From an uncultured Elusimicrobia bacterium (GTDB taxonomy: Bacteria > Elusimicrobiota > Elusimicrobia > Elusimicrobiales > UBA9959), in assembly GCA_903879915.1 (NCBI GenBank), contig CAIRNJ010000057.1:1-39666 (forward strand): DNA of 39,666 nucleotides, in the 5' to 3' direction. This document shows positions 26,498-38,553 of this stretch, piece by piece (position 1 is the stretch's first letter; each line of letters opens with the position of its first letter). Under the pieces are notes generated by a model. That model saw only the letters and a program-made list of their open reading frames with translations, had not been told where the DNA came from and made no database searches. The position numbers and the translations under genes were made by a program.

Positions 26498-27118
26498 ATG
26501 AATGAAAGGCCGGAAACCAGGAAGGGCGGCAATACCAGGCAGAAGATAGTGCTGGCGGCTATAAAGCTGGCGGCCAAGCACGGCTTCGCCGAGGCCAGCT
26601 TCCAGATGATAGCCGACGAGATCGGGCTGAGCCAGTCGGCCGTGATGTACCATTTTCCGGACAAGAACGCGCTGTTCGCGGAGCTGGTGCGGACCATCGT
26701 CCGCCACAACCACGAGGTGGTCAGCGAGCTTATCGAGATCACCGACGGCGCTGGCGCGAGGCTGCTGAAGCATTGCCTGGGCAACGTAACGTGGGCGCTG
26801 CGCTACCGCAAGCAGGACGCGCAGGTCCTCATACTGCTGTACTACCTGGCCGGGCGGGGCGAGAATTTCTCGAAGCTTTTCACCCGCATGATAGCCGGCG
26901 GGCGCGAACGGATACTGGAGCACCTGCTGGCGGGGACCAGGGAAGGCCTGTTCAGGCTGAAAGCCGACCCCGCCGTGACGGCAGAGCTGATACAGGACAA
27001 CCTTTTCGGCGCCATGCTGTACGCGGCTTCGGCCCCGGAAGGGAGCGCGGATAAAGCCGGGCTGGAAAAGAAATGGAAGAGCTTCCTGGCCGCCCTCACC
27101 GGCTGGAAGGCGGATTGA
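26498..27118 (+). CDS. TetR-family transcriptional regulator
   Basis: The 206-aa protein has the TetR N-terminal DNA-binding domain: TRQKIVLAAIKLAAKHGFAE, then QMIADEIGLSQSAVMYHFPD and KNALFAELV (about 13-60). The all-helical C-terminal ligand domain is unassignable by eye. It probably binds the palindrome at 26361 and represses itself and possibly the divergent gene at 26297. No efflux or metabolic target lies beside it; guaB, 76 bp downstream, has its own Shine-Dalgarno and might be read from the same transcript. Confidence 0.88.
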   Translation: MNERPETRKGGNTRQKIVLAAIKLAAKHGFAEASFQMIADEIGLSQSAVMYHFPDKNALFAELVRTIVRHNHEVVSELIEITDGAGARLLKHCLGNVTWALRYRKQDAQVLILLYYLAGRGENFSKLFTRMIAGGRERILEHLLAGTREGLFRLKADPAVTAELIQDNLFGAMLYAASAPEGSADKAGLEKKWKSFLAALTGWKAD

Positions 27119-27194: not shown

Positions 27195-28652
27195 ATGCTT
27201 CAAAGAAATATCCCGTTAGGCCTCACCTTCGACGATGTTCTCCTGCTGCCCGCCAAGTCCTCCGTGCTCCCCAGGGCAACCTCCATCCATACCCGGCTGA
27301 CCGCCAAAATAGCCCTGAATATCCCGCTGATCTCGGCCGCCATGGACACGGTGACCGAATCCGCGCTGGCCATAGCCATGGCGCGCGAAGGCGGCCTGGG
27401 CATCATCCACCGCGCCATGCCGGCGCACCTGCAGGCGCTGGAGATAGCCAAGGTCAAGAAGCACGAAAGCGGCGTGATAACCAGCCCCATAACCATCTCG
27501 CCCGACGAAACGCTGCGCGCCGCGCTGGAGCTGATGCGCAAGCACCACATCTCCGGCCTGGTGGTGGTGGCGCAGGGCAAGCTCGCCGGCATCCTGACCA
27601 ACCGCGACCTGTGCTTCGCCCGCGACCTGGACAAAAAAGTTTCTTTCGCGATGACGAAAAAAGTGGTGACGGCCCCGGTAGGCACCACGCTGGAGCAGGC
27701 CGAGCGGATACTTTACGAGCACCGCATAGAGAAGCTGCCGCTGGTGGACAGGAATTACCGGCTGAAAGGCCTGATAACCACGCGGGATATGATGAACACC
27801 AAGGAATACCCCGACGCCTGCAAGGACAAGGCCGGGCGGCTGCGGGTGGGCGCGGCCATAGGCGCCGGCGAAGCGGCGGTGGAGCGCGCAGGCGAGCTGG
27901 TGAAGTCCGGCGCCGACGTGATCTCCCTGGATTCCGCGCACGGCCATTCCTCCAACGTGCTGAAGACCCTCAGGGAAGTGAAGCGCCGCTACGACGTGGA
28001 GATCATAGCCGGCAACGTGGCCACTTACGAGGGGGCGCGCGACCTGATAAGGGCCGGCGCCGACGCCATAAAGGTGGGCATAGGCCCGGGCTCCATCTGC
28101 ACCACGCGCATCATCTCCGGCGTAGGGGTGCCGCAGCTTACCGCGGTGAGCGAATGCCGCAGGGCGGCCGCGCCGCGCCGCATTCCCGTGATAGCGGACG
28201 GCGGTATAAAATTCTCGGGCGACATAACCAAGGCCATAGCGGCGGGGGCCGACTGCGTGATGCTGGGCACTTTGCTCGCCGGCACTAAAGAGGCGCCCGG
28301 CGACATCATCCTTTACCAGGGGCGCAGCTACAAGGCCTACCGCGGCATGGGCTCCGTGGGCGCCATGGAGGCCGGCTCCAAGGACCGCTACGGGCAGGCG
28401 GGCGTGGAAAAAGATAAGCTGGTGCCGGAGGGGATCGAAGGGCAGGTGCCGTACAAAGGCTCGGTGGCCGACATCGTGCACCAGCTCACCGGCGGCCTGC
28501 GCTCGGGGCTGGGCTATTGCGGGGCCGGGGACCTGGCGGCGCTAAGGAAAGGTGCCCGGTTCGTGCGCATCTCCAACGCGGGGTTAAAGGAAAGCCACGT
28601 GCACGACGTGAAGGTTACCAAGGAAACGCCGAATTACGCGCTGAACGACTGA
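27195..28652 (+). CDS. guaB: IMP dehydrogenase
   Basis: The 485-aa cytoplasmic enzyme oxidises IMP to XMP with NAD+, the committed step of GMP synthesis. Visible signatures are [16 protein letters not shown], the two CBS domains (about 95-205) inserted in the TIM barrel, LDSAHGHS, the catalytic loop [11 protein letters not shown] with C302, and the flap region [10 protein letters not shown]. The length is normal and all key residues are present. The Shine-Dalgarno is AAGGAGG. The clean core-genome gene next to the accessory region is a good anchor for phylogeny. Confidence 0.98.
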
Positions 28653-28673: not shown

Positions 28674-29681
28674 TTACAGCAGGTCGATGGTCAGGTTCAG
28701 CCCCAGCACGGTCTTTTCGTACTTGTTCCCGAAGGACGACTTGTCGGAGTTCAAAGGGATAAGCAGCCTGGCGTTCAGGTTGACTATCTCCGAAAGTTTG
28801 TGTCCCAGGCCGAGCGTGAGGTAGAAGATGCGGAGCTTTTCATCCCCGCTGCTTGCAGTTCTGGCGCTGCCTGTCTCCGCCCCGAAGATGTCAAAGTTCT
28901 TTACAGTATGAAGCTTGTTGACGGTTTCCGTTATCACGTCATACCTGAGGCCGCCCAGCACGTTCCATCCCTCCCTGTTCCTTTTTGAAACTTCAAGCCC
29001 TAGCCTTCTTATCGAGGCGTCGAATTTATAGGAATCCGAGATCTCGTCGTAATTGCCGAAAGAATCGGCGGCGGTCCGCTCGAACGCCGACTGCGGGGAC
29101 TGATCCTTGCTGGCCAGTCCGAAAAATAACGTTCCGGCCCATTCTGTTCCTCTTAACCCGAGGCTTAATACCGGCACGGTCCCCTCCAGGCCGACGCCGG
29201 CCACCGGTATTTTCTTGTGGCGCCTCAGGTAGTCGGCGGCCGATTGCCGGGTGTCGTCGCTGGGCGTCGGCAGCGTGTCGGTGGAAGACGGCATGCTCAG
29301 TTCTTCCTGGACGGGAGCGGCAGGCGTGGAGATCGCCACCGGCTGGGGGGCGGCGGACCCGCTCATCGGCCTTACGTCCACCAGCGAGTTGCCGACGGTG
29401 TAGTATTCCTGGCTCCAGAGGTAGTCGAAATTTACCTGGTCCACGCCTCGGCTCACCCGTTTGGCCTTTACGAGCCGCTCCACCCCGGCGGGGTCGACCC
29501 AGCAGGGGCGCCCGTTCGTAATGGTGGCGCCGTCGGTGAAAAATCTTTTCCCGACCTTCGCGATACAGGTGTACCGGATCTCTGCCGCCAGCGCGGCGGG
29601 AGCTGAGCCCGCGAGGAGCAGCGCCCCGGCGAAAAATATTTTCAGGGAGTTCCCGGTCAGACTTTTAATGTTGGTCGTCAT
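28674..29681 (-). CDS. Outer-membrane beta-barrel protein of the ATPase operon
   Basis: The 335-aa product has a signal peptide ending PAALAA. An N-terminal soluble domain (about 35-110) with two cysteines and a Pro/Ser-rich linker leads to a C-terminal half. That half is rich in amphipathic strands (LGLEVSKRNREGWNVLGGLR, IFYLTLGLGHKLSE, VLGLNLTIDLL) typical of a barrel. It is the last gene of the operon, 15 bp after the ATPase gene. If it really is an outer-membrane barrel, the operon spans cytoplasm to outer membrane. Confidence 0.7.
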   Translation of the reverse strand: MTTNIKSLTGNSLKIFFAGALLLAGSAPAALAAEIRYTCIAKVGKRFFTDGATITNGRPCWVDPAGVERLVKAKRVSRGVDQVNFDYLWSQEYYTVGNSLVDVRPMSGSAAPQPVAISTPAAPVQEELSMPSSTDTLPTPSDDTRQSAADYLRRHKKIPVAGVGLEGTVPVLSLGLRGTEWAGTLFFGLASKDQSPQSAFERTAADSFGNYDEISDSYKFDASIRRLGLEVSKRNREGWNVLGGLRYDVITETVNKLHTVKNFDIFGAETGSARTASSGDEKLRIFYLTLGLGHKLSEIVNLNARLLIPLNSDKSSFGNKYEKTVLGLNLTIDLL

Positions 29682-29696
29682 TTTATTAAACGCACC

Positions 29697-31472
29697 CTAT
29701 AAGCCGAGCCTTTTCAGCCATCTTGTGCCGAAGCCTTCATGCTCCAGAACGTCCGTAGAGATATTCGCTTCAAAAAGCCTGTTCGCGGTCTGCAGCGCTA
29801 TGGTCCGTAGATTTATGGAAGACTCGCATTGGTCGTTGTACCGCACTATTGGGGTCCCCACTTTTATCGCCTTGATAAGTTCCGGGTCCCTGCATACCGT
29901 TCCGGACGATTCCAGGCGCTGCGGCGAGGTTTCCTCTACCATGCCTTTCATCAGGAAATACTGGTCTTTCCCCTCGGTCAGGGTGTCTGCCATGTTCACG
30001 AGGAGCCTGAGGGGGCCGTCGTTCCTGGCTTTTACGGCGCTTATTTCCGAGAAGGCCGAAGTATTAGCCCTGGACAGTTCGATAAGCCTGGCTATATCCG
30101 GGGTCTTGGCGGCCTTCATCGTGGCGTCTATGCTCTCAAGGTTCTGGAACATGGTAACGAAAGAGTCGAAGAACGGGTTCTGCCCCCTGATGGTCCGGTT
30201 GTAGTCCGGTTTCCTGGCGTAAAAAGCTATCGTTCCCTCCAGGTCGTATTTCTCGGCCTGCTGCTGGTCCATCAGCCAGTTCTCCGTGGAAGTGATCTTC
30301 GCGAGGCAGTCGGTTATTTCCTCGGCGGTGGGGATCAGGCGCGCGTGGAGGCCGAACAGGGCCCCGTTCATGTCCTCCAGCGTTTCCGCGGAGAATTTTT
30401 TCATCATGAGGAACGGGGTTATCTTGGAAAGCCCCGACTGCGTCAGGCCCACTTTAAAGAACGACATGGCGTCCCGCGGGCTGATGCCCAGCCTGTCGAT
30501 GCAATAGGCCGTAAGATTTTCCGCGTCGAAGCCGTGCGCCCTGCCTATCTCGGAGACTTTCCCGAAGACCTCGAGGTTCAGCTGGGTTATTTCCAGCGAC
30601 TGGAATTTGCAGGCCTCGTTGGCTATGCTGGCTATGAACGGCAGCGAATAGCTCATGCTCCAGAACGCCGTCAGCGATCTGTTTATGGACTCCCCGTTCT
30701 CCAGGCCGGCTTTCGCTACTGCTTTAAGGATGAACCTGTGGTAGTAGCTGCTTATTCCCTCCTCCGTGTCCGTCAGTTCTTCGAGGGGCTTGGCCAGCTG
30801 GGCCAGCGCGTAGTCCTTCCCGCCTTTTTCGAAATCCTCGCCGTATTTCTTTGTTATCACTTCGCTGAGCGGCCGTTTCAGCTGCAGGTAGGCCAGCACG
30901 GTATCCTCTATGCTGTGTTTCTGCAGGATCTCCTTCAGCGCTTTTTCCGTGTTCTTGGTGGTTATGGCGTTTATCAGCTTGAAGGAGTCGGACCGCGAGG
31001 GCGGCTCGGGGCAGGTCACTATTATGACCTCGTCGGCCATGCCCGCCATGGAGAGGACGTAATCGTTGAGGCCGGCCGGCGCGTCCAGGATGAAAAGGTC
31101 GTAGGACCTGTCGAGATTGTTCATCTGGCCGATTATCCGGTTCTGCCTCTCGGCGTAGCTCATCCGCTGCAGTTCCTCCATGTCGGAGGCGCCGGGGATG
31201 AAATCCACGCCGTAGCGCTGGTAGGTTATTTCTTTTATCGTCCGCTTCCCCCTGAGGACGTCGGTGAAATCGTAGCGCGGCTCGGGCGCGCCTATTATCT
31301 GGGAGACGTTGGCCAGGTTGGTGTCCCCGTCGAAGATTATAGGGAAATAGCCCAGGTCCTTGAAGATGATGGCCAGGTTGACGGAGACGTTGGATTTGCC
31401 GACGCCGCCCTTCCCGCCGGCGACGACGATCGTCTTCGATTTCCTTTTTGTCCTGTGCTCTGCGCCTTTCAT
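29697..31472 (-). CDS. MinD/FlhG-like ATPase with a large internal insertion
   Basis: The 591-aa protein starts at MKGAEHRTKR; its ATG overlaps the stop of the previous gene (ATGA). Residues 14-173 match the deviant Walker A P-loop family: GGKGGVGKS (19-27), FDGDTNLANV (47-56), LFILDAPAGLND (126-137) and VTCPEPPSRSDSF (152-164). The final part of that fold then appears only at about 480-570: LRLLVNMAD, GTVCRDPELIKAIKVGTPIV and SSINLRTIALQTANRLF. About 305 mostly helical residues lie between. MinD and FlhG are normally 260-300 residues and position division or flagellar machines on the membrane. The insertion is unusual. Confidence 0.85.
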   Translation of the reverse strand: MKGAEHRTKRKSKTIVVAGGKGGVGKSNVSVNLAIIFKDLGYFPIIFDGDTNLANVSQIIGAPEPRYDFTDVLRGKRTIKEITYQRYGVDFIPGASDMEELQRMSYAERQNRIIGQMNNLDRSYDLFILDAPAGLNDYVLSMAGMADEVIIVTCPEPPSRSDSFKLINAITTKNTEKALKEILQKHSIEDTVLAYLQLKRPLSEVITKKYGEDFEKGGKDYALAQLAKPLEELTDTEEGISSYYHRFILKAVAKAGLENGESINRSLTAFWSMSYSLPFIASIANEACKFQSLEITQLNLEVFGKVSEIGRAHGFDAENLTAYCIDRLGISPRDAMSFFKVGLTQSGLSKITPFLMMKKFSAETLEDMNGALFGLHARLIPTAEEITDCLAKITSTENWLMDQQQAEKYDLEGTIAFYARKPDYNRTIRGQNPFFDSFVTMFQNLESIDATMKAAKTPDIARLIELSRANTSAFSEISAVKARNDGPLRLLVNMADTLTEGKDQYFLMKGMVEETSPQRLESSGTVCRDPELIKAIKVGTPIVRYNDQCESSINLRTIALQTANRLFEANISTDVLEHEGFGTRWLKRLGL

Positions 31473-32581
31473 TTTTCGCCCATGACCCTCGCGGGGATCA
31501 GCGCGGGCGAGCCCGAGACCGGCTTTTCGCCGCTGTATCCCGCAAAGAACAGTTTGTAATCCCTGGCCAGGTCGGCCAGGGCCTTGCCGTCCCTGGGGAG
31601 CGTGCCCCACGGGAGCCAGTAGAAATCGGACATGGCCATATTCTTGTCTACGCGCCTCAGCCTTGCGGCCGTGAGCTTTTTGTCCAGCAGAACGTGCGCG
31701 GCCGTGAAGCTGACGATGCCCGGGCCTTCAGGCCAGAAGTTCTTGTCCTGCCAGCCGTCCTCCGTGAGCAGCGGCTTGGCCAGGTCGGCTTTCCCGAGAT
31801 CTATCCCGACGAAGGCGTTCTTCCAGCCCAGCTCGGCTATCCGCGTGAATTTCTCGGCCTCGCGTCCGGGCTGTCCGAAAAGCGAATTCTGGCAATAGGG
31901 GTGAAAAAAGATCACCTTCAGCTTGTCGGCATAGCCCGGCCGTTCTTTTATGAAACGCATCAAGATGCCGGCCGCGCAGTCCGGGTCCGTTCTTCTGTCC
32001 GGCAGCAGGTTGAAGAGTTCCCTGCCCGAGCCTATCAGCGCGATAATGGTGCCATTGCCTTTTTTTATCGACCGGAGTATGTCTTCCGAAAATTCCCGGG
32101 GATTTCTTGTGGCGGCTCTTACCGCGGGGTTGAAATGCCTGATGCCGGCGGGGTCGTAAGGGACTACTTTCCCGTTCAGCACCCTTCCCACCGAATGGTA
32201 GGCCAGGACGTCGGCCCCGTTCTTCACCAGCTCCTTTATCTGTTCCGCGTCCGCAGGGCCGGCATGCCCCCGCAGCGCCGCCGGTAAAGCGGCTTCAAGC
32301 CGGCCCAGGCCGCTTTTTCCGCCGTACAGCGCGGTATTGGAAAAGAACGCCCCCAGCTTTTTTTCGTCGGCTTCTTTCGACATGTCCGCCATGTCCTCGG
32401 GGGTCACTTCCAGCGACAGGCGGGGCGGGATGTACTGATAGCCGATGAATGCGAGCAGGGGCAGCCCCAGCAGCAGGGCTAGCATCGTGAGCGTCTTGCG
32501 TTTCCTGTCTACCGCGGCGGTGTAGCTCTTGCCGGTTTCCGTCCCTTTCTTGTAGAGCAGGGCGTAAATATCATTCTTCAT
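31469..32581 (-). CDS. Single-pass membrane protein with large periplasmic domain, unknown
   Basis: The 370-aa product has a short basic cytoplasmic start, one transmembrane helix (about 30-50, TLTMLALLLGLPLLAFIGYQ), then a ~315-residue periplasmic domain. Alternating alpha/beta signatures (ADVLAYHSV, NGTIIALIGSGREL, KLKVIFFHPYC, AFVGIDLG) suggest a TIM-barrel or flavodoxin-like fold, with no motif I can name. It overlaps the genes before and after by four bases each (ATGA), so equal expression is expected. It is a likely partner of the ATPase. Confidence 0.7.
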   Translation of the reverse strand: MKNDIYALLYKKGTETGKSYTAAVDRKRKTLTMLALLLGLPLLAFIGYQYIPPRLSLEVTPEDMADMSKEADEKKLGAFFSNTALYGGKSGLGRLEAALPAALRGHAGPADAEQIKELVKNGADVLAYHSVGRVLNGKVVPYDPAGIRHFNPAVRAATRNPREFSEDILRSIKKGNGTIIALIGSGRELFNLLPDRRTDPDCAAGILMRFIKERPGYADKLKVIFFHPYCQNSLFGQPGREAEKFTRIAELGWKNAFVGIDLGKADLAKPLLTEDGWQDKNFWPEGPGIVSFTAAHVLLDKKLTAARLRRVDKNMAMSDFYWLPWGTLPRDGKALADLARDYKLFFAGYSGEKPVSGSPALIPARVMGEK

Positions 32582-33459
32582 TTTCTGTCTGTTTTAGCTG
32601 CCGGTTTAACTGCCGGCCGGTTTATGTTTATCGGCAGCGTCAGCCGCATGCCCTTGACCAGCCGGCCCTGGTAGATTATCGAGTACTTCGGGCCGTTCGC
32701 GTTCCTGATCCTCAGCTCCGACACCTTCGCCCGCTTCGCTACGTTCTCCATCGTGTCCCCGGCCCGCACGACATAGAACTGCTTGAAATGCGCCTGGTCA
32801 TCCTTCGCGAGCTCAGCCTCTCTGGAGAGGTAGGCGCTCCTGTTGTTGAGCGGGTTTATCTTCGTGGCGCGGTCATACAGTTCCATGGCCTGGTCGTATT
32901 CTTTCTTGCTCCACAGTTCGTCGGCATCCGCGGTCATTTTCGTGGCCAGGTCGAGGTTCTCTTCAATGCCTTTCAGGGCGGAATCTATCCGCTCGTCCTT
33001 CAGTTCCTCCACCTGCGGGAAGATCTTCCTGTAAAGCGCGTAATTCCGCCTGTTTATGGCTTCAAGCGTGACCTCCAGCAATTTGTAGTTCTTGCTCAGC
33101 TGCTTTACCTCCAGCTTTCCTTCGTAGGCCAGCTTGGTGGGGTACCCGATGCTGACCGCTAAAAGCACGGCGAGTATCGTCAGCACGGTCGTCCTCGTGA
33201 CGTTCTTCTTCCCGGCTACTTTGTCCTGGACCTTGAAGATCTCCTGGGCGGCGTCGGGCTGCAGGCGGGCGGTTATGCCTTTTTTATCCGTGGCCAGGCC
33301 CCTTAATTTCTTGTCCAGGGCCTCCGCCGTATTGCCGCGGACGGCGTTTTGCTCGTCAAAAATGGATTTAGATTCCGGTTTAGACTTTTTGAGCCAGACC
33401 GCTTTTATGGCGTCCACTTCAGTCTTGAACGCGTCTTTTTCAGGATTGTTTTCAGTCAT
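32578..33459 (-). CDS. Membrane protein with cytoplasmic segment, TPR-like helices and LysM domain
   Basis: The 293-aa product starts at MTENNPEKDA after AAAGGGA; the frame to 33525 lacks a better start. Residues 1-88 are charged and probably cytoplasmic, and a transmembrane helix spans about 90-107. A helical region with a TPR-like repeat (ELWSKKEYDQAMELYDRATK, 181-200) follows, then a LysM-type module at about 228-277 (FYVVRAGDTMENVAKRAKVS). LysM binds peptidoglycan. It is the first gene of the four-gene operon and would tether the complex to the wall. Confidence 0.8.
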   Translation of the reverse strand: MTENNPEKDAFKTEVDAIKAVWLKKSKPESKSIFDEQNAVRGNTAEALDKKLRGLATDKKGITARLQPDAAQEIFKVQDKVAGKKNVTRTTVLTILAVLLAVSIGYPTKLAYEGKLEVKQLSKNYKLLEVTLEAINRRNYALYRKIFPQVEELKDERIDSALKGIEENLDLATKMTADADELWSKKEYDQAMELYDRATKINPLNNRSAYLSREAELAKDDQAHFKQFYVVRAGDTMENVAKRAKVSELRIRNANGPKYSIIYQGRLVKGMRLTLPININRPAVKPAAKTDRK

Positions 33460-33822
33460 ACCGTGTCCCTTTGGTTTTATTTTTACGTCCTGCCCGGCAA
33501 TTCGGTGGCCGTCCCCCGCCAACATTCGATTTATTATATATTTTATTCACAGACAATTATACATCACGAGTGCGCCAGAGTTATGTCAGTTTTTTTACAA
33601 GGTTATGTCATGGAACCGGCCCGGCCGGCATATGAGGTAACGGCAGGCTCTCTTAATACGCGCAACAGGACATAATCACAGCCGGAAAGTGAACCCTGCC
33701 GGGTAACGCGGGAACTTGCGTGAAATGCGCGGATATTCTATTATTCTGTACGGGCGCAACGCGCCTCAGGGGCGGTAATTTTGTAAACTATTGCTGGAAT
33801 TTGCGGGGCGACAGGAGGAATA
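33460..33822. other. Divergent intergenic region of operon and permease
   Basis: No gene is seen. On the minus strand a TATAAT (33556-33561) may start the ATPase operon, without a clear -35. A plus-strand promoter for the permease is listed separately. A short hairpin GGCGC-AAC-GCGCC lies near 33757. No known riboswitch class was recognised before the permease. Confidence 0.45.
33716..33744 (+). promoter_or_regulatory. Candidate promoter of the permease gene
   Basis: TTGCGT (33716-33721), a 17-base spacer and TATTAT (33739-33744) precede the gene by about 80 bases. Confidence 0.5.
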
Positions 33823-35436
33823 ATGGCGGAAAACGGCAACCAGGCTCCTTTTAAATACGAGTGGTTCACCATGGGCGACATCAACGGCTTCTTCGGCCTG
33901 ATGTTCGACAATATCACGGTGCTGAGCATCATGGCGAGCATCATGATCTTCGCCTTCGGCTTCCCCGCCGAGATCGTTTACACTAAAATGTTCCCCGGCA
34001 CCGCTTTCGGCGTGCTGTTCGGAGACATTATCTACACCATAATGGCTTTCCGCCTGGCCAAGCGCACTAATAATGCTACGGTGACCGCCATGCCGCTCGG
34101 GCTCGACACCCCGTCGAGCATAGGCATAGCGCTGGCCGTGCTCGGCCCGGCCTTCCTGGGCTTCAAGGCCAACGGCATGCCGGAGCACGAAGCGGCCATG
34201 ATGACCTGGTATCTCGGCATGGCCACCATGGTGCTTATCGGCGTCTTTAAGTTCGTTTTCTCCTTTATAGGCGGCTGGCTGCAGAAAATAATCCCGCAGG
34301 CCGGCCTGCTGGGGTCGCTGGCCGGCATAGGCCTTGCGCTCATCGGCTTCATTCCCCTGATCGAGGTCTTCAAGATGCCTATCGTAGGCCTCATCGCGCT
34401 GGGCCTGATAATGTACACGCTGGTGGCCGGCATCAAGCTGCCCAGGAACTTCCCCGGCGTGTTCGGCGCCGTGGTCATAGGCACCGTCCTGTATTATATT
34501 CTCGCCCCTTACGGCCTGGCCGGCGGACATTACCAGCCTTTCACGGCCCAGCTGCATTTCGGCCTGCCCATCCCCACCCTGGATTTCCTGAAAGGCATGA
34601 GCGAAGCCATAAAGTACCTGCCCATCGCCATCCCGTTTGCCATCCTTACGGTGGTGGGCGGCATCAACGTGACCGAAAGTGCGCGCGTGGCCGGGGACGA
34701 CTTCAAGACCCGGGACATCCTGCTCACCGAAGCCATAGCCACCCTGGTGGCCGGCATCTGCGGCGGCGTGGCGCAGTCCACCCCGTACATCGGCCAGCCC
34801 GCGTACAAGGCCATGGGCGCCCGCGCCGGCTACACGCTGCTCACCGGCATCTTCATCGGCCTGGGCGGTTTCCTCGGCTACGTCGGGTTCATCGTGGAGC
34901 TCATCCCGGCCGCGGTGATAGCCCCGATCCTTATCTTCGTGGCGCTGGACATCATGTGCCAGGCTTTCCACGCCTGCCCCGTAAGGCACGCGCCCGCGGT
35001 GGCCATGGCCTACTTCCCGACGGTGGCCCGCATGCTGCAGATAAAGCTCTCCAACCCCGGCATGGTCCCGACGGAGATCTTCGCCAAGCAGCTTATCGCC
35101 GTGGACAAAGGCCTGCCGGAGCTGCAGATAATAGTGGCGCTGGGCAACGGCTTCATCCTCACCGGCATGCTGTGGGGCGCTTTCATGGCCAAGCTCATAG
35201 ACCGGCAGATCCGCACGGCCGCGGTGTACGTGCTGGCCTGCGCGGTGCTGACCTTCTTCGGCATCATCCATTCGGCCATCCCCGACGGCAACATGTACCT
35301 GCCCTGGACGCTGGCCTACCCGGGCAACCAGGTGCCGTACCAGTTCACCGCCGGTTACCTGGCGCTGGCCGCGCTGCTGTTCGCGTTCTCCTTCTCCAAG
35401 GAAAGCAAAGAGGGCCACGCCCCGGAACATTACTGA
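33823..35436 (+). CDS. NCS2-like (xanthine/uracil-type) permease
   Basis: The 537-aa protein has 12-14 hydrophobic segments and family-like stretches such as MFDNITVLSIMASIM, TAMPLGLDTPSSIGIALAV, GGVAQSTPYIGQPAYKAMGARAG-type sequence around 310-330, and IELIPAAVIAPILIFVALDI-like sequence near 360-375. The layout fits the UraA/AzgA fold that imports nucleobases by proton symport. The substrate cannot be read from sequence. A good Shine-Dalgarno (AGGAGG) precedes the ATG. No purine gene is adjacent except guaB, 5 kb away. Confidence 0.75.
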   Translation: MAENGNQAPFKYEWFTMGDINGFFGLMFDNITVLSIMASIMIFAFGFPAEIVYTKMFPGTAFGVLFGDIIYTIMAFRLAKRTNNATVTAMPLGLDTPSSIGIALAVLGPAFLGFKANGMPEHEAAMMTWYLGMATMVLIGVFKFVFSFIGGWLQKIIPQAGLLGSLAGIGLALIGFIPLIEVFKMPIVGLIALGLIMYTLVAGIKLPRNFPGVFGAVVIGTVLYYILAPYGLAGGHYQPFTAQLHFGLPIPTLDFLKGMSEAIKYLPIAIPFAILTVVGGINVTESARVAGDDFKTRDILLTEAIATLVAGICGGVAQSTPYIGQPAYKAMGARAGYTLLTGIFIGLGGFLGYVGFIVELIPAAVIAPILIFVALDIMCQAFHACPVRHAPAVAMAYFPTVARMLQIKLSNPGMVPTEIFAKQLIAVDKGLPELQIIVALGNGFILTGMLWGAFMAKLIDRQIRTAAVYVLACAVLTFFGIIHSAIPDGNMYLPWTLAYPGNQVPYQFTAGYLALAALLFAFSFSKESKEGHAPEHY

Positions 35437-35505: not shown

Positions 35506-36030
35506 ATGGATAAGAGCGAAGCCGAGCTGGTGGAGAAGGCCAAAGCAGGGGATATCCCCAGCTTCGAAGCGCTGGTAAAGCGGAACCAGGAGAAGCTCTA
35601 CGGCCTTGCTTTCCACGTCTGCGCCGGCCTCAGGTCGGAGGCGGAGGACGTATACCAGGATACGCTCATCTCCGCGTTCAAGAACATAAAGAATTTCAAG
35701 GGCAGCTCGGGCTTCGGCACCTGGGTTTACCGCATAGCGGCCAACAACTGCTGGATGAAGTTCCGCAAGAAGAAATCCGAGAAGCTGGTAAGCATGGAGG
35801 GCCTGCGGCTGGAGGATATCCCGCAGGCCGACGAAACGGCCAAGAAAGAATTGTCGGAGAGCGTGGCCAGGGCCCTCGAGAAACTTCCGGTGGACTTCCG
35901 CCTGGCCATTACGCTGGCCGACATAGAGGGCCTGAGCATGGCCGAGGCCGCCAGGGTCCTGAAAATATCGGTGCCCGCCTTCAAGACCCGCCTGTTCCGC
36001 GCGCGCGCCGCGCTCAAGAAAGATTTTTAA
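35506..36030 (+). CDS. ECF-type RNA polymerase sigma factor
   Basis: The 174-aa protein shows sigma region 2 (SFEALVKRNQEKLYGLAF, EAEDVYQDTLISAFKNI, FGTWVYRIAANNC) and region 4 (LPVDFRLAITLADIEGLSMA, FKTRLFRARAALKK). The start at MDKSEAELVE follows an AGGA; a longer frame from 35473 adds 11 residues. No anti-sigma gene lies beside it, so control must be encoded elsewhere or is at the transcriptional level. A terminator follows directly. Confidence 0.93.
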   Translation: MDKSEAELVEKAKAGDIPSFEALVKRNQEKLYGLAFHVCAGLRSEAEDVYQDTLISAFKNIKNFKGSSGFGTWVYRIAANNCWMKFRKKKSEKLVSMEGLRLEDIPQADETAKKELSESVARALEKLPVDFRLAITLADIEGLSMAEAARVLKISVPAFKTRLFRARAALKKDF

Positions 36031-36034
36031 GCAG

Positions 36035-36069
36035 GCCGCGCCCGGAACGCCCGGCGCGGCGTTTTTTTT
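36035..36069 (+). terminator. Rho-independent terminator
   Basis: The stem GCCGCGCC (36035-36042)/GGCGCGGC (36053-36060) has a 10-base loop and is followed by an eight-T run from 36062. Confidence 0.88.
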
Positions 36070-36077
36070 CGCGTTCG

Positions 36078-36105
36078 TTCATATTATTTTGTAAAATAGT
36101 ATGAA
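36078..36105 (+). promoter_or_regulatory. 28-bp palindrome over the NikR-like start codon
   Basis: TTCATA-N16-TATGAA, whose inner part TATTTT-GT-AAAATA also pairs, forms a near-perfect 28-bp palindrome. Its 6-16-6 layout equals that of the E. coli nik operator, although the half-sites differ. It overlaps the ATG at 36101, and no Shine-Dalgarno is visible. TAAAAT at 36092-36097 could be a -10, which would give a leaderless mRNA starting at the ATG at 36107. Confidence 0.65.
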
Positions 36106-36526
36106 TATGAAGAACGCTTCCCTCGACCGCTTCACCGTCTGCCTGGAGAAGGGCCTGCTGGCCCGGCTGGACGGGATCTCCGCGGAGCGCGGCTACCCCA
36201 GCCGCTCGCAGGCCGTGGCCGACTTCATCCGCCGGGCCATCGTAAAAAAGGACTGGCAGGGCGGCCGCGCCTGCGCCGGCACCGTTTCCATCGTGTACGA
36301 CCCCGCCGACCCCCGCCCGGGGCGCGGCCTGGAGAAGCTGCTGCGCGCCGGCGCCGGCAGCGTGCTTTCGGTGCAGACCAATCTGCTGCCAGGCGGGAAA
36401 ATGCTGGCTACGGCCTCCGTTACCGGGCGGCCTGCCGCGCTGCAGCGCCTGGCCGACGCCATGCGCGCGCTGAAAGGCGTCACTCACGGCTCGTTCTCGA
36501 TAATAGCGCCCCTTGGCGGAAAATAA
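36101..36526 (+). CDS. NikR-like ribbon-helix-helix regulator lacking nickel ligands
   Basis: The 141-aa protein has an N-terminal ribbon-helix-helix (DRFTVCLEKGLLARLDGISA, GYPSRSQAVADFIRRAI) and a C-terminal ACT-like domain (AGTVSIVYDP, LQRLADAMRALKGVTHGSFS), as in NikR. The positions of the nickel ligands are changed: the THVHLD stretch reads QTNLLP, the following Cys is Met (M101), and the LQHDYHD His is missing. It therefore cannot bind nickel in the known way. The ATG may be 36101 or 36107. Its stop shares a base with the start of the TonB receptor gene (TAATG), so the two are coupled, and it probably controls itself through the palindrome. Confidence 0.8.
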   Translation: MNMKNASLDRFTVCLEKGLLARLDGISAERGYPSRSQAVADFIRRAIVKKDWQGGRACAGTVSIVYDPADPRPGRGLEKLLRAGAGSVLSVQTNLLPGGKMLATASVTGRPAALQRLADAMRALKGVTHGSFSIIAPLGGK

Positions 36527-38553
36527 TGCAGAACAGCAAGCTGATAGCGCTGGCGCTGCTGGCTTCTCTCTCGGCGCCGCTCCTGGCAGCGGACGTCAAT
36601 ATTTCCGTAGTAACCCCCGCGCGGACCGCCCGCGCGATAGGCGACGTGCCGGGCGAAGTTGACGTGATAACCGGTTCGCAGCTGAAAAGCGCTCCGGGCG
36701 CCACGCTGGGCGACAAACTGGTGAACGCAATTCCGGGAGCCGCCAGCAGCCGGACCAACGGAATATATTCTTATACGTCCGTGGTGACCATGCGCGGCAT
36801 GCCCGGCAACGAGCAGGGCCGCACGCTGGTGCTGCTGGACGGCGCGCCTGTCAACACCGGCGCCACCGGTTCGGTGAACTGGAACCGGCTGGCTTCGGAG
36901 GATATAGAACGCATAGAGGTGTTCAAAGGGCCGGTCTCGTCGCTGTACGGCTCCAACGCCGCGGCCGGTGTGATAAACATAATAACCAAAAAAGCCGAGC
37001 CCGGCTGCCGGCTGGGCGCCGCGTACGGGACCTATAACACTTTGCGGGCCAACGCCGGGGCGGGCGTGAAAATAAAGAACTTTTCGCTGTCCGCGGACGG
37101 CAGCTATCTCGGCAGCGATGGTTATAACTCGACGCCGAAAAACCTGCGCGCCGCGCCGGACTATACCGTTAACAGGTACGTGCTGGAAAAGAACGCCTCG
37201 GCCGGGGCCGCGCTGGACCTCGGCGAAAAAGGCGTTGTCGACGCGCAGTATTCGCGCACGGAAGGCCAGCGCGGGGAAGGCGCGCGCTACAGGGCGGCCG
37301 ACGGCGTAAGCCGGCGGTACAATACCGATTCCGCCCGCGCCGCCTGGCACGGCGACAACGGCCATACGGCCTGGCAGACGCAGGCTTATTACCAGCTGGA
37401 GAACTATCTGCGGCTGAGCGAATCCGTCAAAAGCAATATTTACAGCCGCATCAATACGCAGGCCCTGCGCCAGGACGCCGGCGGTCAGGCCGCGGTCTCC
37501 CTGCCGCTGGGCGGCGTGCTGGCCACGTTCGGGGCCGACTATAAGCTGGGGGCCGTGGACGCCGTGGACCATAACCTGGCCGCGGGCTCGGCGCCGGCCT
37601 ACGACAGCCGGGACCGGGGGCGGACCAGCCAGTATGCGCCGTACGTTCAGGCCGAAAAAAAACTTGTTTCCGGCAGGCTGCGCCTGCTGGCCGCCCTGCG
37701 CTACGATAACGCCAGTTATTTCGACGGCTATTTCTATAACCCGTCCACTGTTGCGTACAACTCCGCTAACGGCCCCCAGAGCGGCCATTACTGGGACAGC
37801 TTCTCGCCCAAGCTCGCCGCCGGCTGGCAGTACGCGGCGGGCACCGAACAGTATGTTTCGTACGGCAAAGGTTTCAGGCCGCCGCCCCTCGAGGATATGT
37901 GCCTGACCATGCTGAAAGGGAAGACCGGCTCCAGCCAAAGGTTCAGCCGGGCGAATCCCGCTCTTAAGCCGGAAACGGTGTATACCGCGGAAACCGGCCT
38001 GAAACTGTCGCCCGCCCTCGGCCTGTATATCGAGCCCGCCGCCTATTATACCGTCGGCCGGGATTTCATGTATACCACCGACACCGGCGAAAGGGTGAAC
38101 GGCGTAATAGTTTCACTGAAATCAAATATCGGTAAAGTAAAAATATACGGCGCGGAGCTGCCGCTGAAATATTATTCGGGGAACTTTTCGCTGGCCGCGG
38201 CTTACGGCTGGTCGGAGAGCAGAATAGACCAGTACGCGGGCAATACCGCGCTGGAGGGCAACACCCTCACCTATTCCCCGCATCAGACCGCGTCCGTGGC
38301 GCTGGGGCTTAAAACCGCGTCCGCCGACCTTACGCTGGGCTGGTCGTATAAATCCAAACAATACACTTCTGACGACAACAGCGCCTGGGTGCGGCCGTAC
38401 CATCTGCTGGCAGCTGCCGCAGAGCGCGCCTTTACCAAGGCGGTCAGCGCGAAGCTCTCTGTGGAGAACATCTTCGACAAGCGCTACCAGGAAAGCCCGG
38501 CCGACCTGGCTCCCGGCAGGACCTTCACTGTTTCCGTGGAGGCTAAATTCTAA
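36526..38553 (+). CDS. TonB-dependent outer-membrane receptor
   Basis: The 675-aa protein has signal peptide MQNSKLIALALLASLSAPLLA. A plug domain follows (about 30-160) with VVTMRGMPGNEQGRTLVLLD, ERIEVFKGPVSSLYGSNAAA and GVINIITKKA. A 22-strand-type barrel (GWQYAAGTEQYVSYGKGFRP, SAKLSVENIFDKRYQ) ends in EAKF. The plug resembles BtuB/FepA types. It imports a metal chelate, corrinoid or metallophore across the outer membrane with TonB energy. Coupling to a NikR-like gene hints at a metal, but the substrate is unproven. No separate TonB box is identified with certainty. Confidence 0.93.
   Translation: MQNSKLIALALLASLSAPLLAADVNISVVTPARTARAIGDVPGEVDVITGSQLKSAPGATLGDKLVNAIPGAASSRTNGIYSYTSVVTMRGMPGNEQGRTLVLLDGAPVNTGATGSVNWNRLASEDIERIEVFKGPVSSLYGSNAAAGVINIITKKAEPGCRLGAAYGTYNTLRANAGAGVKIKNFSLSADGSYLGSDGYNSTPKNLRAAPDYTVNRYVLEKNASAGAALDLGEKGVVDAQYSRTEGQRGEGARYRAADGVSRRYNTDSARAAWHGDNGHTAWQTQAYYQLENYLRLSESVKSNIYSRINTQALRQDAGGQAAVSLPLGGVLATFGADYKLGAVDAVDHNLAAGSAPAYDSRDRGRTSQYAPYVQAEKKLVSGRLRLLAALRYDNASYFDGYFYNPSTVAYNSANGPQSGHYWDSFSPKLAAGWQYAAGTEQYVSYGKGFRPPPLEDMCLTMLKGKTGSSQRFSRANPALKPETVYTAETGLKLSPALGLYIEPAAYYTVGRDFMYTTDTGERVNGVIVSLKSNIGKVKIYGAELPLKYYSGNFSLAAAYGWSESRIDQYAGNTALEGNTLTYSPHQTASVALGLKTASADLTLGWSYKSKQYTSDDNSAWVRPYHLLAAAAERAFTKAVSAKLSVENIFDKRYQESPADLAPGRTFTVSVEAKF

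Follow-up and report, generated by a model that had tools for sequence, protein, structure and literature searches.

Switches of the MinD/ParA type determine where flagella, pili, carboxysomes, and divisomes are placed. In enzymes of the MinD/FlhG kind, ATP brings about dimerization and membrane binding through a C-terminal helix, the membrane-targeting sequence, and hydrolysis leads to release (PMC7226244). FlhG carries an N-terminal activator helix with a DQAxxLR motif that stimulates FlhF (PMC12826062), binds FliY/FliM at their extreme N-terminal ends (PMC12327844, PMC12826062), the former of which contains an EIDAL element (PMC12826062), and is anchored at the cell pole by HubP, a landmark protein with a LysM domain and a transmembrane (TM) segment (PMC7226244, PMC12918733). 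BcsQ, an ATPase of the MinD superfamily, operates within a complex that spans the envelope and also includes TPR and outer-membrane components (PMC7439463). Here, we describe a four-gene operon on the minus strand (positions 28674–33459) of a contig from an uncultured Elusimicrobia bacterium (CAIRNJ010000057.1; the whole stretch of 39,666 nucleotides is referred to as the window), encoding a LysM protein, a single-pass membrane protein, an FlhG/MinD-type ATPase, and a secreted protein. The operon is an uncommon and transferable version of a MinD/FlhG-type system, and no described system matched it in the searches made. Our tentative reading of its sequences, which we put slightly short of an even chance, is that the module may be a horizontally acquired positioning switch built around the ATPase, recruiting a periplasmic protein at a peptidoglycan-anchored site.

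In order of transcription, gene 1 (P0004, 293 amino acids (aa); 33459-32578) is followed by gene 2 (P0003, 370 aa; 32581-31469), gene 3 (P0002, 591 aa; 31472-29697), and gene 4 (P0001, 335 aa; 29681-28674), the last being an optional member. The junctions between genes 1 and 2 and between genes 2 and 3 are 4-base overlaps, and genes 3 and 4 are separated by a 15 bp gap; the gene order, two ATGA overlaps, and gap described in a first-pass annotation of the window are thus borne out by the coordinates. In between-genome comparisons, the ratio of nonsynonymous to synonymous substitution rates (dN/dS) was 0.09–0.43 for each of the four genes, indicating that all are real coding genes and none a spurious open reading frame (ORF). 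Genes 1, 2, and 3 occur in the same four of 32 genomes of the genus (the window's genome, G000, together with G151, G152, and G167), always in the order 1-2-3 and with the 4-base overlap of genes 2 and 3 kept in all four. The LysM/TPR protein, the single-pass protein, and the ATPase are therefore a linked module under purifying selection. Gene 4 adjoins gene 3 in G151 and in G167, where the copy is 46% identical and carries an insertion, and is absent from G152, where prfA comes ~0.5 kb after the ATPase gene. The proposal of a four-gene set that co-occurs in relatives consequently holds for genes 1–3 and only in part for gene 4; at the scale of the phylum co-occurrence is uninformative, because hardly any relative carries even one of the four. 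No pilus, type II secretion, flagellar, or Tol-Pal gene lies inside the operon, in agreement with the first-pass annotation, which likewise knew of no described system with this composition. Secretion ATPases (PF00437) are present in all 32 genus genomes, so co-occurrence cannot link the module to pili or type II secretion.

The ATPase is the member with the clearest relatives. In profile searches against the PDB, the best match of gene 3 was FleN (5J1J, E 5e-28), with archaeal and bacterial MinD ranking behind; its catalytic Walker A, Walker A', and switch motifs are intact, and KGGVGKS, DGDTNLAN, and DAPAGLND are invariant in the orthologs. By these sequence criteria, the earlier label of a MinD-like ATPase was well chosen: the product is a genuine MinD/FlhG-type ATPase (MinD models matched as well), nearest to FleN/FlhG. 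The likeness to FlhG/FleN (PDB 5J1J, 4RZ2/4RZ3) comprises the core fold, by profile, the Walker motifs, and a putative C-terminal amphipathic helix (EGFGTRWLKRLGL; 29700–29741, minus strand), which follows a variable linker and is predicted to resemble the membrane-targeting sequence of MinD and FlhG. The C-terminal end, EGFGT(R/K)WLK(R/K)(L/F)G, is 64% invariant and the preceding linker 36%, and the hydrophobic moment of this end falls in the 92nd–99th percentile of the windows of its own protein in all four orthologs. Unlike FlhG/FleN, gene 3 sits in an envelope operon and carries a long additional segment: the profile alignment runs collinearly up to a break and again after it, with residue 170 of gene 3 equivalent to FleN 172 and residue 488 to FleN 180, so that ~317 residues (171–487; 30012–30962, minus strand) stand where FleN has ~7. 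This segment is mostly helical by low-confidence prediction, belongs to no family, and showed no outside relatives by sequence in searches of the 341 genomes of the phylum, the PDB, and phage, plasmid, and viral-contig collections; 57% of its positions are invariant, versus 87% and 80% in the flanking ATPase halves. In Geobacillus FlhG, the surface that binds FliY/GpsB includes residues 177 and 207 as well as F215 (PMC12327844); for residue 207, the source prints R277 in one passage and R207 in the following one. We estimate, by rough numbering rather than a computed superposition, that these client-binding residues map at or just after the break. PDB profile matches of the extra segment and of gene 2 to designed ankyrins (through a short ELVKNGADV), ribosomal S11, maltose-binding protein fusions, and MqsA were regarded as chance, and a second ATPase match in the window's genome proved to be the chromosomal ParA/Soj adjoining ParB.

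Gene 2 encodes the candidate client of this ATPase. Its predicted parts (31469–32581, minus strand) are a cytosolic peptide (residues 1–30), a TM segment at about residues 31–51, and a periplasmic domain of ~260 aa; the charge balance, +4 before the TM segment and -3 after it, indicates that the N-terminus is cytosolic, and the clear single TM segment (also seen in gene 1) confirms the first-pass description of a single-pass protein. No match to gene 2 was found in Pfam, NCBIfam, PHROG, PADLOC, or the PDB (the last searched with both whole and trimmed sequence), a Foldseek search with a low-confidence model gave no hit at E <= 0.001 and had low TM-scores, and profile searching recovered four orthologs, the window's copy included. 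The protein starts with MKNDIYALLY…, and across three divergent orthologs residues 1–20 (MKNDIYALLYKKGTETGKSY; 32522–32581, minus strand) are 75% invariant, the next 10 only 10%. A conserved peptide on a variable stalk is the pattern expected of a docking peptide, making this segment a candidate docking site for the ATPase. The D-(I/V)-Y-A-L-L at its core is reminiscent of EIDAL(L), an element of C-ring proteins in which the EIDAL residues themselves contact FlhG. Across the ORFs of the neighbourhood (45,841 aa), the pattern [DE][IVL].ALL was counted three times: two occurrences lie at the beginning of gene 2 orthologs (G152 and G167) and one inside an unrelated 660-aa protein, the other two gene 2 copies being masked in this count by longer overlapping ORFs. 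In the periplasmic part, helices and strands alternate in the low-confidence model, and many invariant polar residues (e.g., in GSGRE, FFHPY, and FYWLPW) come after predicted strands, which hints at a possible alpha/beta enzyme-like domain.

The product of gene 1 (32578–33459, minus strand) is a putative peptidoglycan anchor, predicted from its sequence to consist of a short cytosolic N-terminus, a TM segment at about residues 92–112, a periplasmic TPR-like stretch, and a LysM region (residues 229–275; 32635–32775, minus strand; PF01476). Of the two domains in the first-pass description, the LysM holds, with 22.1 bits against a cutoff of 20.9 (E 1.5e-4, residues 229–258 matched) and 30.7 bits (E 3e-7) in the G167 ortholog, and the TPR is weak, its match lying below the Pfam cutoff. 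Charges of +3 before the TM segment and +2 after it leave the orientation less certain than that of gene 2. In two carriers the 5' part of the gene is replaced, in G167 by four 22-base repeats (L044:15143-15226), for which one of the plasmid matches, an annotated record, has IS3- and IS21-type genes no more than 3 kb away, and in G152 by an unrelated stretch (L043:1-135) with a possible transposase start on the opposite strand. Judged by eye, both junctions look like mobile-element junctions, and gene 1 may thus have been broken by mobile elements in two of the four genomes; because of these replacements, G000 and G151 alone show the cytosolic N-terminal part.

For gene 4 (28674–29681, minus strand), the first-pass annotation had proposed an outer-membrane barrel, of which only the signal peptide could be substantiated. 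The signal peptide is followed by a small secreted domain (residues about 36–106), a linker, and a C-terminal domain that ends in ...LTIDLL; no family or PDB match was obtained, and the protein has seven amphipathic strand-like segments against a mean of 6.1 in shuffled sequence. A small beta-barrel is plausible for the C-terminal domain, given its sequence, with the one test made having failed. The claim that every envelope layer is covered accordingly stands from cytosol to peptidoglycan, by predicted topology, and is partly inference for the outer membrane, because the barrel was not confirmed. A longer version of the N-terminal domain forms standalone secreted proteins of 195–235 aa, two in G151 and one in G167 (L072:9364-10062, L073:9481-10188, and L074:956-1543, with unrelated neighbours); none was found in the window's genome. 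Gene 4 thus looks, from sequence comparison, like a fusion of this standalone-type domain, shortened here, to a second, C-terminal domain. A Pfam Diphtheria_C match on the G167 homolog fell below the cutoff and was judged to be noise.

Profiles of gene 2 and of the C-terminal two thirds of gene 3 found matches in four of the 341 phylum genomes, leaving aside two marginal ones (per-genome E about 3-4e-4, with 341 genomes searched): a short match of the gene 2 profile in G078, to a long protein unlike gene 2, and a short match of the profile of the ATPase C-terminal half in G070, both judged to be chance. Orthologs of gene 1 were found only in G151, G152, and G167. Absence from 337 of 341 phylum genomes makes the module accessory. 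It was not found in the plasmid, phage, or viral-contig collections searched, and a scan of 84,980 genomes with two short peptide patterns, which distant relatives may escape, found it in no other species. The genes flanking the module differ among three lineages, in unrelated neighbourhoods, and the operon genes have less GC than those around them, gene 3 having 45% in G152 versus 61% for prfA and murA, 52.5% in G167 versus 60% for its neighbours, and 56.5% in the window's genome versus 62–65% for guaB and the permease gene. In a guaB tree the carriers form no clade, so that three gains or losses are required, and a single gain or loss was sufficient in none of 200 bootstrap trees. Low GC content, unrelated neighbourhoods, and scattered carriers together make horizontal transfer probably the simpler reading; losses are a possible alternative, the tree resting on one gene. 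The guaB neighbourhoods are scrambled across the genus, and for this reason no clean empty-site comparison is available.

We favour a positioning switch because the operon encodes the set of parts known from FlhG and HubP: an ATPase of the FlhG type, a protein combining LysM with a TM segment, and a client whose cytosolic N-terminal peptide is conserved. An ATP-bound dimer of the gene 3 product would lie on the inner membrane and dock onto the gene 2 N-terminal peptide, much as FlhG does with the N-terminus of FliM/FliY. In this way the dimer would gather the periplasmic domain of gene 2 where the gene 1 product, bound to peptidoglycan, marks a site, the latter product serving as a landmark comparable to HubP, the LysM landmark of FlhG. 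Hydrolysis of ATP would then free and recycle the ATPase, and gene 4, where present, would be an outer-envelope partner. The parts and conserved motifs are evident in the sequences, and from them we infer every interaction as well as the positioning itself. Like HubP/FimV, gene 1 combines a LysM, a single TM segment, and a TPR-like stretch and is paired with an FlhG-type ATPase (PMC7226244, PMC12918733).

Several points weigh against such a switch. HubP itself is large, with an N-terminal LysM and a cytosolic TPR/FimV domain, whereas gene 1 has about 290 aa and is predicted, from a weak charge difference, to have its N-terminus inside and both its LysM and its TPR-like stretch in the periplasm; the predicted topology is thus the reverse of that of HubP, and no FimV domain was matched. 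The contigs of G152 and G167 end inside gene 1, leaving its cytosolic part uncovered in those genomes. The likeness of the gene 2 peptide to EIDAL is short, was noticed post hoc, and serves as a lead only. AlphaFold2 models from the four-sequence alignments had a mean predicted local distance difference test (pLDDT) score of 38.5 for gene 2 and 36.0 for gene 3 and were unusable. By analogy with BcsQ, moreover, the features of gene 3 could serve a non-positional role.

A bolder form of the positioning reading, which we regard as speculative and unlikely to hold in full, is that the FlhG branch of MinD ATPases has been re-used outside motility: the ATPase, with the extra ~317-residue domain at or near the face that FlhG uses for its clients, would grip a FliM-like peptide at the cytosolic end of a TM protein and so control from within the cell where a periplasmic activity is placed, the whole forming a transferable cassette in bacteria that lack flagella. 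A transferable switch with an extra domain and a familyless membrane client would illustrate how new cargo is acquired by switches of this sort; at ~4.8 kb, the operon is small enough for testing of the whole module in a laboratory strain. If the ATPase were an ordinary regulator, the gain would be a defined family for nameless Elusimicrobiota proteins.

Of the other explanations, one takes gene 3 for a BcsQ-like regulator of the export or modification of a surface polymer, with gene 2 as a periplasmic modifying enzyme and gene 4 as the outer-membrane exit. Like BcsQ/BcsE, the operon would pair a MinD-superfamily ATPase with an envelope-spanning complex (PMC7439463), the Pfam model CBP_BcsQ scores 23.0 on gene 3 against a cutoff of 21.3, and the low-confidence alpha/beta pattern of gene 2 would suit an enzyme. 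However, generic ParA/MinD models score far higher, the BcsQ equivalog model reaches only 27.2 bits against a cutoff of 157.85, no cellulose synthase, other glycosyltransferase, or polymer transporter occurs in the operon or in the adjoining neighbourhoods read, and the supposed exit is missing in G152, which leaves this account unlikely, if worth keeping in view. The trans-envelope machine proposed in the first-pass annotation, a self-contained, energised device across all envelope layers that would move a substrate or exert force, fares worse. Parts are predicted for the cytosol, inner membrane, wall, and possibly the outer membrane, and the operon is tight, but MinD/FlhG ATPases are established as switches rather than pumps, no channel, secretin, motor, or rotary part was found in the operon, each of the two membrane proteins has just one TM segment, the barrel is unproven and optional, and the module is found in only four of 341 genomes; we consider such a machine very doubtful.

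An accessory fitness or conflict module, acting in defence or competition against phages, predators, or neighbours, or as a mostly selfish cassette, would account for the sporadic distribution, low GC content, differing neighbourhoods, and carriers that are not one clade, as well as for the seeming breakage of gene 1 by mobile-element-like ends in two genomes. Against it, no PADLOC defence model rose above noise (the best, a short match to the ATPase, had E 8e-4), phage and plasmid collections contain no copy, and purifying selection has been long, so that we hold this explanation to be decidedly improbable. That gene 3 is no more than the lineage's own FlhG, regulating flagellar number, or its MinD, regulating division, is suggested by its similarity to FleN/FlhG and MinD, and with the latter it also shares a deviant Walker A ATPase core and a predicted C-terminal membrane-targeting helix. 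Yet FHIPEP/FlhA was detected in none of the 32 genus genomes by a search that was positive in flagellated control species, and the FlhF-activating DQAxxLR motif is absent from all four orthologs, which have about 5–13 variable residues before the first strand; together these absences mark gene 3 as FlhG-like rather than a working flagellar FlhG. The suspicion that one member belongs to a well-known complex elsewhere is therefore justified for the FlhG/FleN-like ATPase core and contradicted by the missing diagnostic flagellar features. As for MinD, gene 3 scores 74.4 bits on the equivalog model, far under the cutoff of 212.9, no MinC or MinE is encoded in the operon (the search for them was confined to it), and a module missing from 28 of 32 congeners cannot be the division MinD of the genus. 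A housekeeping FlhG or MinD is, on these grounds, extremely improbable.

The operon is flanked by a convergent guaB (27195-28652) and by a divergent permease-like gene (33823-35436), with which it has in common the upstream intergenic region (33460–33822; minus strand with respect to the operon, by ORF layout). The operon promoter is likely to lie in this region; a consensus scan found no sigma-70-like site there. Between 28500 and 33900 there are 17 terminator-like hairpins where 8.9 would be expected; almost all of them are on the plus strand and inside the minus-strand genes, and the T-rich composition of the antisense strand probably explains the surplus. Directly before guaB lies a TetR-family regulator (26498-27118), a pairing seen elsewhere only in the sister genome G151; the regions beside guaB that were examined in other members of the genus do not have it. 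The divergent gene encodes a 537-aa membrane protein that looks xanthine/uracil permease-like and matches no Pfam model at E <= 1e-5. Beyond it, an ECF-type (extracytoplasmic function) sigma factor, a NikR-like regulator, and a TonB-dependent receptor stand in a row (35509-38553) and perhaps form a nickel uptake unit.

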